Source: Acetobacteraceae bacterium
GTDB taxonomy: Bacteria; Pseudomonadota; Alphaproteobacteria; Acetobacterales; Acetobacteraceae
Assembly: GCA_024280945.1 (NCBI GenBank)
Contig: JAMXLO010000002.1
Location: 62,001-126,000 of the forward strand
Length of the DNA: 64,000 nt
Direction of reading: 5' to 3'
Part shown: positions 2,887 to 8,435 of the stretch, in pieces
Numbering within the stretch: the first letter of the stretch is position 1
Layout: the number at the start of each line of letters is the position of its first letter
Notes under the pieces: generated by a model
Seen by the model: only the letters and a program-made list of their open reading frames with translations
The model's database searches: none
What the model was told of the DNA's origin: nothing
Position numbers and translations under genes: made by a program

Positions 2887-3426
2887 TTACTTGACCGGCA
2901 ATGATCGTTCGTCCCGCGTCACCGTGACGGGCCGAATGCTGGCGCGGCCGCGACGCGATTCGGTTCTCGATGATCGACCAAGGGCCTTGGTCTTATTCGT
3001 GGTCGATCTCGACTTCCCGGCCAGCTGCTCCAGCGAACAGCTTTCAAGTACGCCAGCCACAGCATCTCGCGCTTCTTGCATCAGCGACTGCAGCCTGCAC
3101 TTCTTGACATCCACGCAATCTGCACATTGATGGTAGCGCGTGCGGCTCGCGCATGGCGTCAGAGCGAGTGGCCCATCGAGCACGCGAATGACATCAGCGA
3201 CCGAGACCGAATCGGGCGCGCGCGCCAGCCGATAGCCGCCCTGTGCGCCACGACGACTCTCTACAATGCCCTGATCGCGCAATTGAACAAAGATCGCCTC
3301 GAGAAATTTTCGCGAAACCTGTTCCTGCTCGGCCATCTCTGCAATCTGTATCCACGCGCCGCCCGGTACCTCCGCGGCGAGGTGCAGGAGCGCTCGGAGC
3401 GCGTATTTCGCTTTGCTCGATAGCAT
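2887..3426 (-). CDS. Rrf2 family transcriptional regulator
   Basis: 179 residues. The winged-helix N-terminus MLSSKAKYALRALLHLA and the GGYRLAR wing are diagnostic of Rrf2. Cys92, Cys101, Cys104 and Cys110 lie in the loop where IscR-type members bind an iron-sulfur cluster, so cluster or redox sensing is plausible. A basic, Ser/Arg-rich tail of about 40 residues follows the usual end of the family. The start at 3426 has GCAGGAG seven bases upstream; a longer frame beginning at 3513 lacks family similarity. The gene is divergent from an FAD protein and near a sulfonate-type ABC operon, which suggests a CymR/CysR-like sulfur role. That role is inference from context. Confidence 0.9.
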   Translation of the reverse strand: MLSSKAKYALRALLHLAAEVPGGAWIQIAEMAEQEQVSRKFLEAIFVQLRDQGIVESRRGAQGGYRLARAPDSVSVADVIRVLDGPLALTPCASRTRYHQCADCVDVKKCRLQSLMQEARDAVAGVLESCSLEQLAGKSRSTTNKTKALGRSSRTESRRGRASIRPVTVTRDERSLPVK

Positions 3427-3476
3427 GACCAGCTCCTGCGGCAGTGACAGCAGGCGGTCAACCCCCTTCGCACCCA

Positions 3477-3506
3477 CCGGATAACTTTTGGCCGGATAAT
3501 TTTGGG
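3477..3506. repeat. Tandem 15-bp direct repeat in divergent promoter region
   Basis: Two adjacent copies, CCGGATAACTTTTGG and CCGGATAATTTTGGG, agree at 13 of 15 positions. They lie between the divergent Rrf2 and FAD-protein genes, directly next to a TTGACA hexamer. The position suits an operator for the Rrf2 protein, but this is inference. Confidence 0.6.
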
Positions 3507-3536
3507 TTGACATTGCCGGCCTATGTATGTCCGAAT
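3507..3536 (+). promoter_or_regulatory. Candidate promoter of the FAD-protein gene
   Basis: A perfect TTGACA at 3507-3512 sits about 45 bases before the ATG at 3557. The best -10 match at 16-18 bp spacing (CCGAAT, 3531-3536) is weak, so only the -35 is convincing. The tandem 15-bp repeat abuts it upstream. Confidence 0.35.
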
Positions 3537-3556
3537 TCCTATGGGGTTAATAGGAA

Positions 3557-5005
3557 ATGACCATGCAACCAACGATCGCCGTTATTGGCGGGGGATTCAG
3601 CGGGACCCTTCTGGCACTTTGGCTGCAACGGCTGTCTCCGGCGCGGGCCGATATTTGTCTGATCGAACGGAGTGGGCAGTTCGGACGCGGGCCGGCATAC
3701 AGTTCCGATAATCCGAACCATCTGCTCAATGTGCCAGCGGGACGGATGGGGGCCTTCCCCAATGTACCGCTCGATTTTGTCCGCTGGTTGAAGCAGCACC
3801 ACCCCAGCCAATTCGGCGCGGGCTCCCCAGCAGACACTGCCTTTGTCTCGCGTCAGTTATACGGCAGCTACCTTCAGGAATTGCTTGATCTCGGCCTTCA
3901 CGGCAATCACCCGACGCGATTGCGATTGGTGCACGGCAACGTGGTCGCGATTCGCGAACGCGTTGGCGGAATGGCACTGACCATGGCATCCGGCGCGCGA
4001 CTCATTGCGGACATGGCAGTGTTGGCCATCGGCAGCGCGCCGCCGCCGCTACATTCTGACGCAGCGACGCTGCACCTGGCCGGACTTTGGCGGACCAGCC
4101 CATGGCAGCCTATGACGTTCGCCAATTTGCATCCACAAGCCACGGTGCTGCTGGTAGGCACCGGATTGACCATGGTCGATGCGGTGGTGAGCCTACTCGA
4201 CGCAGGCCACACCGGACCGATCCACGCGCTGTCGCGCCACGGGCTGTTACCGCGGCGCCATGCCGAGGGCCCGGCCGCGCCCACTGTATTGCCGCTGCCG
4301 CTGCCAAGCAGCATCTCGTCACTCACGCATTGGATCCGCAGTGAGGCTGCTCGTGCATCGCAGGCTGGGATCGCCTGGCAGCCGGTGATCGATTCGCTGC
4401 ATCCGGTGACTCAGGGGTTTTGGCAAGGACTGAACAGCATCGAGCGCAAGCGATTTCTGCGCCACATGCGGACCTGGTGGGATGTTCACCGTCACCGTAT
4501 GGCTCCGCAAATTGCTGACCGCATCCAGGCTGCACAGAATTCCGGTCAGTTGCGGGTGCATGCTGGCCGGATCACGGCCTGTGATATCAGTGATGGCCAG
4601 GCGGCCATCACGTTCCGGCCGCGCGGGAGCGACAGAGCGCGAACCCTCGGGGCCGCACGCGTAATAGACTGCACCGGTTTCGGCGCCGACATCACCCAAA
4701 CCGTCGATCCGCTGTTGCGTGCGGTGCTGCGGAGCGGCATCGCGCGCCCCGACCAGCTCCGTCTTGGACTGGACGTGACTGCCAAGGGTGCCGTGTTGGA
4801 CCGCTCAGGAGCGGTCTCCGACCGGCTGTTCGCGATCGGTCCACTCACCAAGGGAGCGCACTGGGAGATCACTTCGGTCCCGGACATTCGGTCTCAGTGC
4901 TGCGATCTGGGGCGCATGCTCGCCGCACGCATGGCGCAACTGGGCCGATCCCCTGCCTGGGCCGCCGCCCGGGCCGGTCAGACAGCGCCAGCCTGGTCTC
5001 CTTGA
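3557..5005 (+). CDS. FAD/NAD(P)-binding protein
   Basis: 482 residues. The N-terminal Rossmann motif is IAVIGGGFSGTLLA, at residues 7-20. The segment YSSDNPNHLLNVPAGRMGA matches the NAD_binding_9-type FAD/NAD(P) family. A second nucleotide-binding stretch, VLLVGTGLTMVDAV, lies near residue 200, and a C-terminal DCTGFGAD segment resembles other flavin oxidoreductases. The substrate is unknown. Such proteins are predicted two-nucleotide oxidoreductases, and homologues sit beside sulfur or nitrogen uptake genes. Here the gene is divergent from an Rrf2 regulator and upstream of an ABC import operon. ATG 3557 and ATG 3563 are both possible; neither has a strong ribosome binding site. Confidence 0.85.
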   Translation: MTMQPTIAVIGGGFSGTLLALWLQRLSPARADICLIERSGQFGRGPAYSSDNPNHLLNVPAGRMGAFPNVPLDFVRWLKQHHPSQFGAGSPADTAFVSRQLYGSYLQELLDLGLHGNHPTRLRLVHGNVVAIRERVGGMALTMASGARLIADMAVLAIGSAPPPLHSDAATLHLAGLWRTSPWQPMTFANLHPQATVLLVGTGLTMVDAVVSLLDAGHTGPIHALSRHGLLPRRHAEGPAAPTVLPLPLPSSISSLTHWIRSEAARASQAGIAWQPVIDSLHPVTQGFWQGLNSIERKRFLRHMRTWWDVHRHRMAPQIADRIQAAQNSGQLRVHAGRITACDISDGQAAITFRPRGSDRARTLGAARVIDCTGFGADITQTVDPLLRAVLRSGIARPDQLRLGLDVTAKGAVLDRSGAVSDRLFAIGPLTKGAHWEITSVPDIRSQCCDLGRMLAARMAQLGRSPAWAAARAGQTAPAWSP

Positions 5006-5040
5006 GGTGGCCCCAAAAGCGACTCAAGCCGCCGAACGGC

Positions 5041-5131
5041 CAAGGTAGGAGAAAAAGAATCTTTTTTGCCCGCGGATATTGCGCTGCATAGGAAAAATAT
5101 TCTCAATATTGGGGCCGGCTTCGTGCCGGCC
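5041..5131 (+). promoter_or_regulatory. AT-rich presumptive promoter and leader hairpin of ABC operon
   Basis: Bases 5048-5112 are strikingly AT-rich for this genome, with runs AAAAAGAATCTTTTTT and AAAAATATTCTCAATATT. This is the only promoter-like stretch before the ABC operon, although I cannot assign -35/-10 boxes. It is followed by a stable hairpin, GGCCGGC-ttcgt-GCCGGCC (5113-5131), that would lie in the 5' leader. Confidence 0.45.
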
Positions 5132-5186
5132 GGTTCCGGGGTGGTGGCCTGATCCACGACACCGGCGAGCGATGAAAGGAAGACCC

Positions 5187-5246
5187 ATGGCTCGACCGAT
5201 AGTTGTTCTCACGCGCCAGCGGTGCTGGGCGCCGCGATGTAGCTGA
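5187..5246 (+). CDS. Candidate Cys-containing leader peptide (uORF)
   Basis: A 19-codon frame encoding MARPIVVLTRQRCWAPRCS and ending in TGA. It is preceded by GAAAGGAAGACCC, a good Shine-Dalgarno at normal spacing and better than that of the next gene. Two Cys codons (UGC, UGU) and a Trp codon cluster in the last seven codons. It lies 66 bases before the first structural gene of a sulfonate/nitrate-type ABC operon, behind an AT-rich promoter-like region. Cys-rich leader peptides that sense cysteine supply are established for sulfur operons in actinobacteria. A matching role here is inference from position and composition. It could instead be a chance frame. Confidence 0.5.
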   Translation: MARPIVVLTRQRCWAPRCS

Positions 5247-5284
5247 ACCGCCAGCACTATCGCCGCGGTCACGAGGCCGCCCCC

Positions 5285-5307
5285 ATCATCTTTGGCTGAA
5301 AGATCAT
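5285..5307 (+). promoter_or_regulatory. Hairpin over the translation start region of the ABC operon
   Basis: ATCATCTTT-ggctg-AAAGATCAT can fold with one mismatch and ends five bases before ATG 5313. It covers the ribosome binding region of the first operon gene. It could couple translation of the upstream 19-codon frame to that of the operon, but no rho-independent T-run is present. Confidence 0.35.
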
Positions 5308-5312
5308 CATCG

Positions 5313-5555
5313 ATGCTGCAATCGCACATCATCGACATCGATGGCGTGTTCGTAGGTGCCGCCATCCGTATCGACCGAGGCTATCGTTTCGTCGCCACTG
5401 ACCTGCGCATGGAAGAACTCGACGCGTCCATCTGGCCATCGCTGACAGATGTCCAGCGCGTCGCGCGCCGCGTTTACCGCGACGCCACTTCGGCGGGCCC
5501 ACTCACGCCGTCGCTGCACGCCCGCGCCCATCTCACCGCAATCAAGGGCCGCTGA
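5313..5555 (+). CDS. Small conserved-looking protein heading ABC operon
   Basis: 80 residues, starting MLQSHIIDIDGVFVGAAI. The pattern is IIDIDGVFVGAAIR..GYRFVATD..MEELD.S.WPSL.DVQR.ARR, with alternating hydrophobic residues that suggest a small beta-rich soluble fold. There is no signal peptide or membrane segment. I do not recognise a named family. Its stop is three bases before the ATG of the binding-protein gene, so it is almost certainly co-transcribed with the transporter. An in-frame TTG at 5292 would add seven residues. ATG 5313 is preferred, but its ribosome binding site is weak and overlaps the hairpin at 5285-5307. Confidence 0.7.
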   Translation: MLQSHIIDIDGVFVGAAIRIDRGYRFVATDLRMEELDASIWPSLTDVQRVARRVYRDATSAGPLTPSLHARAHLTAIKGR

Positions 5556-5558
5556 TCC

Positions 5559-6638
5559 ATGGCACACCTCACCCGTCGCACCATCCTGCATGCCACCGGC
5601 TTTGCCGGCGCGGCAGCGCCACTCGGGCTTATGGCCCCGCGCGTGTTTGCTTCCAGCCGGCCAACTGCGTCCGCTCTGACGTTTGGCACTCCGCCAATCT
5701 GCCACGCGTCTGCCGAAGCGCCGGTGACGGTGGTCGAGGGACCACGGCGCAATCTCAAGCTAACGTGGAATGCCGGCGCGATCTGCACCGTCGGCGTCCC
5801 GGTCGCCCAGACCAAGGGTTACTTCGAGAAGCGCAATCTGAATGTCGAACTGATCAATTTCGGTGGCTCGACGGATCAGCTGCTGGAAGCAATCGCGACA
5901 GGCAAGGCGGACGCCGGTGTCGGCATGGCGTTGCGCTGGCTGAAGCCGTTGGAACAGGGGTTCGATGTGCGCATAACCACCGCGACCCACGGCGGCTGCA
6001 TGCGGCTCTTGGCTGCCAAGGCGAGCGGTATCACCAAACTGGAGGACCTCAAGGGCAAGACGGTGGGTGCCAGCGATATGTCGGCGCCTGACAAGAACTT
6101 CTTTTCGATCCGACTTGCGAAACTCGGCATCGATCCGATCAGCGACGTGCAGTGGAAGGTATTTCCAGCGGATCTGTTGCCGATCGCCCTGCAGAAGGGC
6201 GAGGTACAGGCGTTCACTCAAGGCGATCCGCTGGGCTGGGTCATACGTGATCGCGACGGCCTGACGGAGGTCGCCACCAACCTCACTGGTGAGTATGCGC
6301 ACCGGGCCTGCTGCGTGCTTGGCGTGCGCGGCAGTCTGCTGCGCGACGATCGCGCGGCGGCCGCCGCGATCACCGAGGCCGTGCTGGAGGCACAGGAATT
6401 CGTCACCACCAATCCCGACGCGGCGGCGGCAATTTTCGCGCCCTATTCGCCGGTGGCGAAGCCAGACCAACTGGCCGCCATGCTGCGGAGCCACACGCAT
6501 AATCACCACCCGGTTGGAGCTGATCTTCGCCAGGAGATCGCGGCTTACGTCGAGGAGCTGAAGGCAATCTCGGTCATCAAGCCCAGCACCAATGCCGACC
6601 GGTTTTCCGATCGAGTGTACGCCAATGTTCTTGGCTAA
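5559..6638 (+). CDS. ABC transporter periplasmic binding protein, SsuA/TauA/NMT1-like
   Basis: 359 residues. The Tat-type signal LTRRTILHATGFAGAAAPLGL sits at residues 4-24, so it is probably exported folded. The mature part carries the NMT1/SsuA signature: substrate-lobe start LKLTWNAGAICTVGVPVAQTKGYFEKRNLNVELINFGGSTDQ (written here only in part elsewhere), then GKADAGVGMA, and LEDLKGKTVGAS beginning the second lobe. Relatives bind aliphatic sulfonates, taurine, nitrate or thiamine precursors; the sequence does not decide which. It is followed by a permease and an ATPase overlapping at their ends, forming a complete importer. The neighbouring Rrf2 gene and the Cys-containing leader frame favour a sulfur substrate, by inference. 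Confidence 0.88.
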   Translation: MAHLTRRTILHATGFAGAAAPLGLMAPRVFASSRPTASALTFGTPPICHASAEAPVTVVEGPRRNLKLTWNAGAICTVGVPVAQTKGYFEKRNLNVELINFGGSTDQLLEAIATGKADAGVGMALRWLKPLEQGFDVRITTATHGGCMRLLAAKASGITKLEDLKGKTVGASDMSAPDKNFFSIRLAKLGIDPISDVQWKVFPADLLPIALQKGEVQAFTQGDPLGWVIRDRDGLTEVATNLTGEYAHRACCVLGVRGSLLRDDRAAAAAITEAVLEAQEFVTTNPDAAAAIFAPYSPVAKPDQLAAMLRSHTHNHHPVGADLRQEIAAYVEELKAISVIKPSTNADRFSDRVYANVLG

Positions 6639-7653
6639 ATCTCAGCAATCGGCAGAGACTGCGGGGCAGTCGATCGCTGACGCGCCCGAGATGCCAGCCG
6701 CACGGGGCGCCACATGGATCACTGGAGTCTGGGCAGCCGGTGTCTGGCTTTTGGCAGCCGCGATCAGCCGATTCATACCTGACATCGATGACTTCGAGCG
6801 AACCAATTTGCTCGCCGACATCATGGCCGGGATCGGCGTTGTCTTCGTGATCCTTGCATTGGGCAGCCGCTTCTCTGGCGTCAGGCCGCCAGAGCGCGCG
6901 CGTAGCGTGGGGCCGTGGTTCCTGCTGCTCGCGGTAGTCTTGGCGGTATGGGAGTTGCTTACAGCCAAGTTCGCACTGCTGCCTCGGCCTTTCTTTGCGG
7001 CGCCCCAGGGATTGCTGGAGGTGTTCACTGACGACTATCCTCGGTTGGTAGAGAGTGTGTGGCATTCGCTGCGTCTGCTCGCTGGTGGCTACGCGATTGG
7101 CGCGGCGATCGGCTTCGTCGCGGGTGTCGCAATCGGTTGGTCGCGTCGTGTGGGCTACTGGGCGCACCCAGTGCTGCGGCTCATCGGGCCATTGCCGGCA
7201 ACCGCCTGGTTGCCGATCGCCTTCTTCGCCTTTCCGTCCAGTCACAGCGCGAGCACATTCCTGATTGCGCTTGCGACCGCATTTCCGGTCACCGTGCTCA
7301 CCTGGTCCGGCATCGCAAGTGTCAATCGTGCCTATTACGACGTGGCGCGCACAATGGGCGCCTCGCAATCCTTTCTTGTGCTCAAGGTGGCGATTCCCGC
7401 CGCGTTGCCTTCGGTGTTCGTAGGGCTGTTCATGGGACTTGGCGCTTCGTTCTCGGTCCTGGTTGTGGCCGAGATGATGGGCGTGAAGGCTGGGCTTGGC
7501 TGGTACATGCAATGGGCTCAGGGCTGGGCCGCCTATGCAAATATGTATGCAGCTCTGCTGGTGATGGCGTTGATGTGCACCGGACTCATCACGCTGTTAT
7601 TCCGCCTGCGGGACCGGCTGCTCGCCTGGCAGAAGGGGATCGTGCAATGGTAG
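6625..7653 (+). CDS. ABC transporter permease, SsuC-like
   Basis: About 342 residues. Three hydrophobic segments precede the transport domain: WITGVWAAGVWLLAAAI, IMAGIGVVFVILAL and WFLLLAVVLAVWEL. A binding-protein-dependent inner membrane domain follows. The coupling loop for the ATPase is around YDVARTMGASQSFLVLKVAIPAALP, which keeps the EAA-type pattern. The N-terminal pair of helices ahead of the usual SsuC start is an extension. The start at ATG 6625 overlaps the binding-protein gene by 14 bases; ATG 6592 is an alternative. The last codons overlap the ATPase start at 7647, so the genes are translationally coupled. Confidence 0.88.
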   Translation: MFLAKSQQSAETAGQSIADAPEMPAARGATWITGVWAAGVWLLAAAISRFIPDIDDFERTNLLADIMAGIGVVFVILALGSRFSGVRPPERARSVGPWFLLLAVVLAVWELLTAKFALLPRPFFAAPQGLLEVFTDDYPRLVESVWHSLRLLAGGYAIGAAIGFVAGVAIGWSRRVGYWAHPVLRLIGPLPATAWLPIAFFAFPSSHSASTFLIALATAFPVTVLTWSGIASVNRAYYDVARTMGASQSFLVLKVAIPAALPSVFVGLFMGLGASFSVLVVAEMMGVKAGLGWYMQWAQGWAAYANMYAALLVMALMCTGLITLLFRLRDRLLAWQKGIVQW

Positions 7654-8435
7654 CGGCGGCCTTCCGCGTCGTTGCCGACGCAGGAGCGTCGGTCGAGGTG
7701 CTGAAGGTCAGTCATCGCTTCGACCTGCACGGCAAACCGCTCCCTGTCCTCGAAGATGTTAGCTTCCGGGTAGAGCCTGGCGGGTTCGTCGCCCTGCTCG
7801 GGCCGAGCGGCTGCGGCAAATCGACCTTGTTGCGACTGGTGGCCGGCCTTGAGCCACCGTCCCGCGGCGCCTTGTCGGCGAATGATGCTCCGATCGATGG
7901 CCCGGATCCGTCGCGTGTGCTGATGTTCCAGGATCCCACGCTGTATCCCTGGCGCACGGTGAGGAACAACGCAGCGCTTGGCCTGGAGGCGCGTGGACTG
8001 AAGCACAGTCATTCGCCGCGCGTGGACAAGGCACTGCGTCTCGTCGGTCTCACCAACTTTGCCGATGCCTACCCGCATCAGCTCTCGGGTGGCATGGCGC
8101 AGCGCGCCGCTCTTGCGCGCGCTCTGGTGAATGACCCGGAACTCCTCCTGCTCGATGAGCCTCTCGGCAAGCTTGATTCGATGACGCGCATCACCATGCA
8201 GGGCGAGCTGGTCTCGCTGTGGGAGCGCTCTGGTTTTACGGCGTTGCTGGTGACGCACGACGTCGAAGAGGCGCTGTTCATGGCACAGCGCGTGATCGTG
8301 TTGAGCGATCGCCCCGCGCGCGTTAGGGCCGACGTGCCGGTCGATCTACCCTATCCACGCCATCGCGGCCACTCGCGGCTCGCCGACCTGAGACGCGAGG
8401 TGCTGCGCCTGCTCGGGCTGGATGGGACTTGGTAA
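7647..8435 (+). CDS. ABC transporter ATP-binding protein, SsuB-like
   Basis: 262 residues. Walker A is GPSGCGKST, the Q-loop lies at VLMFQDPTLYPWRTV, the signature is LSGGMAQR, Walker B is LLLLDEP, and the H-loop is VTHDVEEA. The order and spacing are those of the nitrate/sulfonate/taurine importer ATPases (SsuB/TauB/NrtD). It energises the permease encoded just upstream, with which it shares seven bases. The frame continues open far upstream, but ATG 7647, overlapping the permease stop, is the sensible start because the domain begins shortly after it. It is the last gene of the operon and converges on the amidohydrolase gene. Confidence 0.92.
   Translation: MVAAAFRVVADAGASVEVLKVSHRFDLHGKPLPVLEDVSFRVEPGGFVALLGPSGCGKSTLLRLVAGLEPPSRGALSANDAPIDGPDPSRVLMFQDPTLYPWRTVRNNAALGLEARGLKHSHSPRVDKALRLVGLTNFADAYPHQLSGGMAQRAALARALVNDPELLLLDEPLGKLDSMTRITMQGELVSLWERSGFTALLVTHDVEEALFMAQRVIVLSDRPARVRADVPVDLPYPRHRGHSRLADLRREVLRLLGLDGTW

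Follow-up and report, generated by a model that had tools for sequence, protein, structure and literature searches.

The analysed stretch of DNA (64 kb, referred to as the window) contains an operon on the forward strand whose first gene (5313–5555, +), starting with the ATG at 5313, codes for a protein of 80 amino acids (DUF) that belongs to no Pfam or NCBIfam family. The predicted structure of this protein is confident (AlphaFold, pLDDT 84) and consists of three strands followed by helices, and a comparison of the model with the PDB gave no match below an E value of 0.001. The DUF family (5313–5555 in the window, and loci L054–L103) comprises proteins of 60–80 amino acids with the pattern IExxGxxAGxxV...GFRFxAS...LDGxxF and heads sulfur operons. 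In the window, the DUF gene has a poor Shine-Dalgarno sequence and is followed after 3 nt by the gene of an ABC substrate-binding protein (NMT1/SsuA-like, below the SsuA_fam cut-off; 5559–6638, +) and by the genes of an ABC permease (BPD_transp_1; SsuC/NtrB/SaoP-like, below the cut-offs; 6625–7653, +) and an ABC ATPase (7647–8435, +). These ABC components resemble sulfonate, taurine, and nitrate systems, with the binding protein and the permease scoring below the sulfonate and taurine cut-offs. Since they fall under the curated cut-offs, the genes are regarded here as a candidate SsuA/NMT1-like sulfur-uptake operon with a putative substrate. On the same strand as the operon, an FAD-NAD(P)-binding protein is encoded further upstream (3557–5005, +), and an Rrf2-family regulator with a Cys cluster (IscR and CymR model matches below the cut-offs) lies on the opposite strand (2887–3513, −). 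A protein with four rhodanese domains (295–1896, −) adjoins the Rrf2 gene and fits a sulfur-related neighbourhood.

Ahead of the DUF gene, the initial annotation had described a frame of 19 codons with a Shine-Dalgarno sequence and two Cys codons near its end. This frame, MARPIVVLTRQRCWAPRCS (5187–5246, +; ATG at 5187, stop codon TGA at 5244–5246), is real, as judged from the reading frame and from the corresponding leaders of relatives, and carries a start signal separate from that of the operon behind it, consisting of the ATG and the Shine-Dalgarno-like sequence AAAGGAAG (5175–5182, +) located 5–12 nt 5' of it. Because the frame is open in the 5' direction as far as position 5049 and contains an additional in-frame ATG at 5172, the exact start of the leader is uncertain. 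Two of the last seven codons code for Cys (Cys13, TGC, 5223–5225, +; Cys18, TGT, 5238–5240, +); they are separated single codons and do not form a run. The stable hairpin noted earlier upstream of the frame was recovered by folding as the stem-loop GGCCGGC-TTCGT-GCCGGCC (5113–5131, +), which is situated between the promoter region and the leader ORF and is immediately followed on its 3' side by GGTTCC (5132–5137, +). The spacer between the leader stop and the DUF start has a length of 66 nt (5247–5312, +) and, according to sequence, folding, and a terminator scan, lacks an intrinsic terminator; its segment CCAGCAC (5251–5257) is complementary to GTGCTGG (5222–5228), which includes the Cys13 codon. 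No match to a sigma-70 promoter or to an intrinsic terminator was obtained between positions 4950 and 5600, and a search of the 64-kb window for T-box or other known Rfam leaders gave 0 matches at gathering score. The intergenic region between the Rrf2 and FAD genes (3440–3575) and the leader promoter region (5005–5140) both carry ATAGGAAA and TTCCTATG, on opposite strands; these may represent a common operator, a possibility that is yet near chance.

The motif RQRC..APRC, which had been named as a signature to be sought in related genomes, did not prove to be conserved: the exact sequence RQRCWAPRC occurs in the window copy alone among 299 genomes of the order. Two shorter motif matches elsewhere in the window's genome were rejected as both lie within long coding frames, and a second genome match to the window leader DNA (G000:C107) was dismissed as a chance match inside a gene. 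The proposed tie to the ABC binding protein had to be abandoned as well, since the 29 family loci that have orthologues of this protein (46–71% identical) are mostly devoid of both the DUF and the leader; it is the DUF that carries the link. A search with the DUF alignment detected this protein in 40 of 385 genomes of the class, and most of the DUF genes are preceded by a short frame with a Shine-Dalgarno sequence and Cys-rich last codons (for example ..CCCRR, ..DGCCCCN, ..SGTCC, ..CPACGR, ..ARMCRR, ..RTCCCRT, and ..CRCCR). The gap between leader stop and DUF is about 40–130 nt, mostly 50–125 nt, compared to 66 nt in the window. In the nearest relatives, which are Acetobacteraceae that share the operon order of the window, the tails read CPGRRCRR and CPGMRCRR versus CWAPRCS in the window, and the alignment of the family tails gives the pattern C-x-x-x-R-C at the stop with both Cys residues of the window in register, Cys13 matching the first Cys in the tails of several Acetobacteraceae leaders and Cys18 the second. 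Of the leader peptide as originally proposed, the Cys tail, its register, and its distance to the next gene are thus conserved across leaders, whereas the exact motif is not. The N-terminal parts of the peptides are unlike between families, their lengths range from 8 to about 50 codons, and number and spacing of the Cys residues vary. Two DUF leaders (L063 and L066) have the Cys cluster mid-way in a longer frame (MAQRRGVFVGLAFACGCCRGDGADVTIGSARHQ) and are without the RNA element described below. The conserved frame, its Cys tail, its position, and the sulfur genes that surround it are observed at these loci, and the comparisons support a Cys-codon leader that is conserved in kind and position before the first operon gene, and before other sulfur operons, in the Alphaproteobacteria.

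In most of these leaders the short frame is preceded by a near-invariant RNA, CCGCGG..ATTTGA..CAGCTTGCRCCGCGTCACCAAACGCTAAAGCG, which was absent from the initial annotation. The Rfam model RF00521 (SAM-II, SAM_alpha) aligns with this element over model positions 1–79, and the element has a P1 stem and the conserved core sequences ATTTGA, GCTTGC, and GCTAAA, while the P2a pairing is short and the outer pseudoknot arm appears short. The scores against RF00521 are about 18–21 bits (20.7 and 18.5) and hence under the gathering score of 36, and none of the relatives' leaders gave a match to Rfam at gathering score. The element is interpreted as a SAM-II-like RNA with SAM as putative ligand. When 84,980 species genomes were scanned for the pattern of the element, at least 120 stretches were retrieved, and among the matches listed all belong to alphaproteobacterial genera or to alphaproteobacterial or proteobacterial MAGs; a model built from the element gave strong matches (at least 49 bits) in the class of the window only, among 299 genomes of the phylum. 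The element, which is probably missing from current annotation, was observed at L104–L223 and L230–L250 (e.g., L036, 1219–1300), ahead of sulfur uptake operons, and is widespread in the Alphaproteobacteria. One region (G407:C1:10577–10792; L270, L273) carries tandem elements, a strong (66 bits) and a weak one (27 bits), about 60 nt apart.

Taken alone, two Cys codons in a frame of 19 are not far from chance expectation. Leader frames were therefore also assessed by a blind procedure, in which the first ATG with a Shine-Dalgarno sequence 25–75 nt behind the element was picked regardless of codon content. This gave a frame in 44 of 77 distinct loci, compared to 2.2 per 77 in shuffled DNA, and the frames begin mostly 39–52 nt past the element. 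All except one (43 of 44) contain Cys within the last eight codons. The share of Cys among the residues is 24.7% in the tails, 3.1% in the remaining peptide, and 2.7% in shuffled DNA, and in the other two reading frames it is 6.2 and 0.6%. It is by this comparison with equivalent leaders that the Cys codons of the window stand above chance. The tail Cys codons at the blind-picked loci are both TGT (n = 73) and TGC (n = 35), they occupy each of the positions −1 to −9 and stand in different orders (CCCRR, GTCC, CGCCCC), and Cys runs are found in relatives' leaders. With wider limits, Cys tails were present in 47 of 50 short ORFs at DUF loci and in 21 of 25 at loci without the DUF. The 77 large frames downstream include MetN-type ATPases with a NIL domain (n = 14), NMT1_2 binding proteins (n = 9), NlpA/MetQ lipoproteins (n = 8), Cys/Met PLP enzymes (n = 4), and one MetE, and the loci were on this account assigned to a sulfur regulon. 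The leader is associated with the small DUF gene and with sulfur operons generally, and not with the ABC binding protein itself.

The arrangement of element and leader differs among the families. In Bosea- and Azospirillum-type loci (L116, L121, L135, L154), a hairpin is located between aptamer and leader and is followed by GGCTCC or CCTCT, sequences that are complementary to the leader's own Shine-Dalgarno sequence; it looks as if the platform of the aptamer governed translation of the leader. Alignments of the relatives show a hairpin of another sequence than that of the window (CCACGA..TCGTGG) between aptamer and leader ORF, and a GGTTCC/GGCTCC-like sequence, complementary to the Shine-Dalgarno sequence of the leader ORF, lies 3' of the hairpin in many of them. 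The GGTTCC of the window is thus a possible anti-Shine-Dalgarno sequence for the leader ORF. In Acetobacteraceae leaders, ATGCAGCTTGC places an ATG within the aptamer (L142, L161, L165, L174, L042, L043, and other Acetobacteraceae loci), and the frame that begins there, MQLAPRHQ.LKR..., continues into the Cys tail, so that leader ORF and aptamer overlap. This frame has Cys in its last eight codons in 26 of 31 distinct loci, compared to 9 of 31 for each of the other frames, and the leader ORF of the Acetobacteraceae thus appears to start inside the aptamer. If translation starts at this internal ATG, ligand binding would mask the leader's start codon.

Nearly all family members that possess the element score 65–79 bits with it. 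The best matches in the window (9.8 bits) and in its entire genome (20.6 bits) indicate that the SAM-II-like element is absent from both. Leaders without a convincing element before the DUF recur (L081, L093, L096, L100, L067, and the longer frames at L063 and L066). As the tail of the window leader is in register, as leader-only loci recur, and as no element is present, the window leader is considered a member of the family that lacks the SAM-type arm. Judged from these sequence comparisons, the window's genome is a derived form that has lost the aptamer and keeps just the Cys arm.

With a probability of roughly 0.75, the frame at 5187–5246 is a translated leader that couples expression of the DUF-ABC sulfur-uptake operon to the supply of cysteine. 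When Cys-tRNA is ample, the ribosome would pass Cys13 and Cys18 and be released at the adjacent stop; the 66-nt spacer would then be exposed and downstream expression would be low. When charged Cys-tRNA is scarce, the ribosome would halt on a Cys codon no more than seven codons from the stop and remain on the message, occupying the tail together with the first part of the spacer, where it would cover the complementarity between the Cys13 region and the spacer (5222–5228 and 5251–5257). The likeliest outcome of such a stall would be relief of repression, in that either Rho would be kept from the untranslated spacer or pairing between tail and spacer would be prevented and the DUF start become usable. 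Within this model, translation of the leader, the sign of the response, and the switch itself are what we infer. In most relatives, the SAM-II-like aptamer just upstream would probably decide whether the leader is translated at all, and if it controls the leader in this way, SAM and cysteine would be read on one transcript. On the complete scheme, a two-input switch in which a SAM-II-type aptamer gates translation of the Cys-codon leader, the leader controls the operon, and the window has dropped the SAM input, we are evenly divided.

A classical transcription attenuator, in which Cys stalling favors an antiterminator that blocks an intrinsic terminator before the DUF, would account for a leader with a Cys tail ahead of a sulfur operon, and a few Bosea-type loci (e.g., L154) do have a hairpin and then T/C-rich sequence past the leader stop. 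The window has no such terminator, however, and across 52 loci the strongest spacer hairpin seldom precedes a T run, and its stability (−12.9 kcal/mol) exceeds by a small margin that found with shuffled DNA (−11.4 kcal/mol), which makes this mechanism quite unlikely. Nor did a simple folding model with a stalled ribosome reveal a switch at the ribosome binding site, as the mean accessibility of the DUF Shine-Dalgarno sequence in the same number of loci was 0.251 in the free and 0.247 in the stalled state (single-structure energies). The folding of the first gene's start region that had been noted in the initial annotation exists as a stem of 6 bp (ATCTTT/AAAGAT), but this stem is weak and forms equally with or without the modelled ribosome. 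An attenuator in the strict sense, as suggested there, is thus not borne out. Since there is neither a terminator nor a modelled change at the Shine-Dalgarno sequence, the sensor would be Cys stalling, and the output is left between protection from Rho and opening of the start site.

That the leader frame of the window is a decaying remnant, its regulation gone together with the aptamer, is unlikely as well, if slightly less so than attenuation. Such decay would agree with the missing aptamer in window and genome, with a tail that has only two Cys and ends with one Arg less, and with the weak Shine-Dalgarno sequence of the DUF gene, but the frame is intact, as are its two Cys codons, which line up with those of the relatives, and other DUF loci retain a leader without an aptamer. 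It is very unlikely that the peptide is itself functional, for instance as a metal- or thiol-binding micropeptide. Cys- and Arg-rich tails do occur in many species, yet a functional peptide is hard to reconcile with N-terminal parts that are dissimilar between families, lengths between 8 and about 50 codons, variable number and spacing of Cys, and the location of these residues at the extreme end beside the stop and within a restricted distance of the following gene. Most improbable is the view that conservation concerns the RNA sequence around the stop of the leader (in many loci TGTCGNCGCTGA), with the Cys codons as its by-product. Nucleotide similarity near the stop is high in Acetobacteraceae and Bosea-type loci, but Cys is found mainly in the frame led by the Shine-Dalgarno sequence, and the use of both TGT and TGC in varied orders at all positions from −1 to −9 speaks for codons over an RNA motif. 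The reading preferred here thus remains a cysteine-responsive leader.

To our knowledge, cysteine leader peptides were previously known from Actinobacteria only. In the literature covered, which comprised few subscription journals, neither an alphaproteobacterial cysteine leader nor a pairing of aptamer and leader was found, and the Cys-codon leader with its usual SAM-II-like aptamer is, as far as searched, new for the Alphaproteobacteria. The leaders form an independent and widespread alphaproteobacterial set of at least 120 loci, most of them preceded by a SAM-II-like RNA that is not picked up with curated models. Their distribution suggests that the supply of cysteine, and in many cases of SAM too, is probably sensed by these bacteria on one messenger before sulfur is imported, and it predicts an integration of cysteine and SAM at the level of RNA and translation in genera such as Azospirillum, Bosea, Microvirga, and Roseomonas.

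The leaders of actinobacterial cys operons have Cys runs beside the stop and are without terminators, and Rho has been proposed to act on them (Seliverstov et al., 2005, PMC1262725); in mycobacteria, such leaders were shown to respond to cysteine (Canestrari et al., 2020, cited in PMC9094748). The leaders described here share with the actinobacterial ones a short ORF, Cys codons at the stop, sulfur genes downstream, and the lack of a conserved intrinsic terminator. They differ in that they occur in Alphaproteobacteria, are led by a Shine-Dalgarno sequence instead of being leaderless, usually follow a SAM-II-like aptamer, and often precede the DUF; unlike the mycobacterial polycysteine leaders, the window leader combines a Shine-Dalgarno sequence with two single Cys codons and no run. 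The upstream element of the relatives resembles RF00521 in matching all 79 model positions, P1, and the ATTTGA, GCTTGC, and GCTAAA cores, but is distinguished from it by scoring about 18–21 bits where 36 would be needed for gathering, by its short P2a, and by preceding uptake operons with Cys leaders and not metY, metA, or metX. SAM_alpha regulons had earlier been placed only before methionine biosynthesis genes of Rhizobiales and Rhodobacterales (PMC4239095). In the metA leader of S. meliloti, the Shine-Dalgarno sequence of a SAM-II aptamer controls translation from a start further 3' (Scheuer et al., 2022, PMC9373788), an arrangement similar to the one proposed here, but no Cys leader peptide has been described for metA, and the Acetobacteraceae leader ORF appears to start within the aptamer. 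Like a leader with tandem SAM aptamers, the leaders of most relatives would place two sensing devices in series ahead of a sulfur gene; there both devices are SAM-binding RNA aptamers, whereas here an aptamer-like RNA would be combined with a translated Cys-codon leader.
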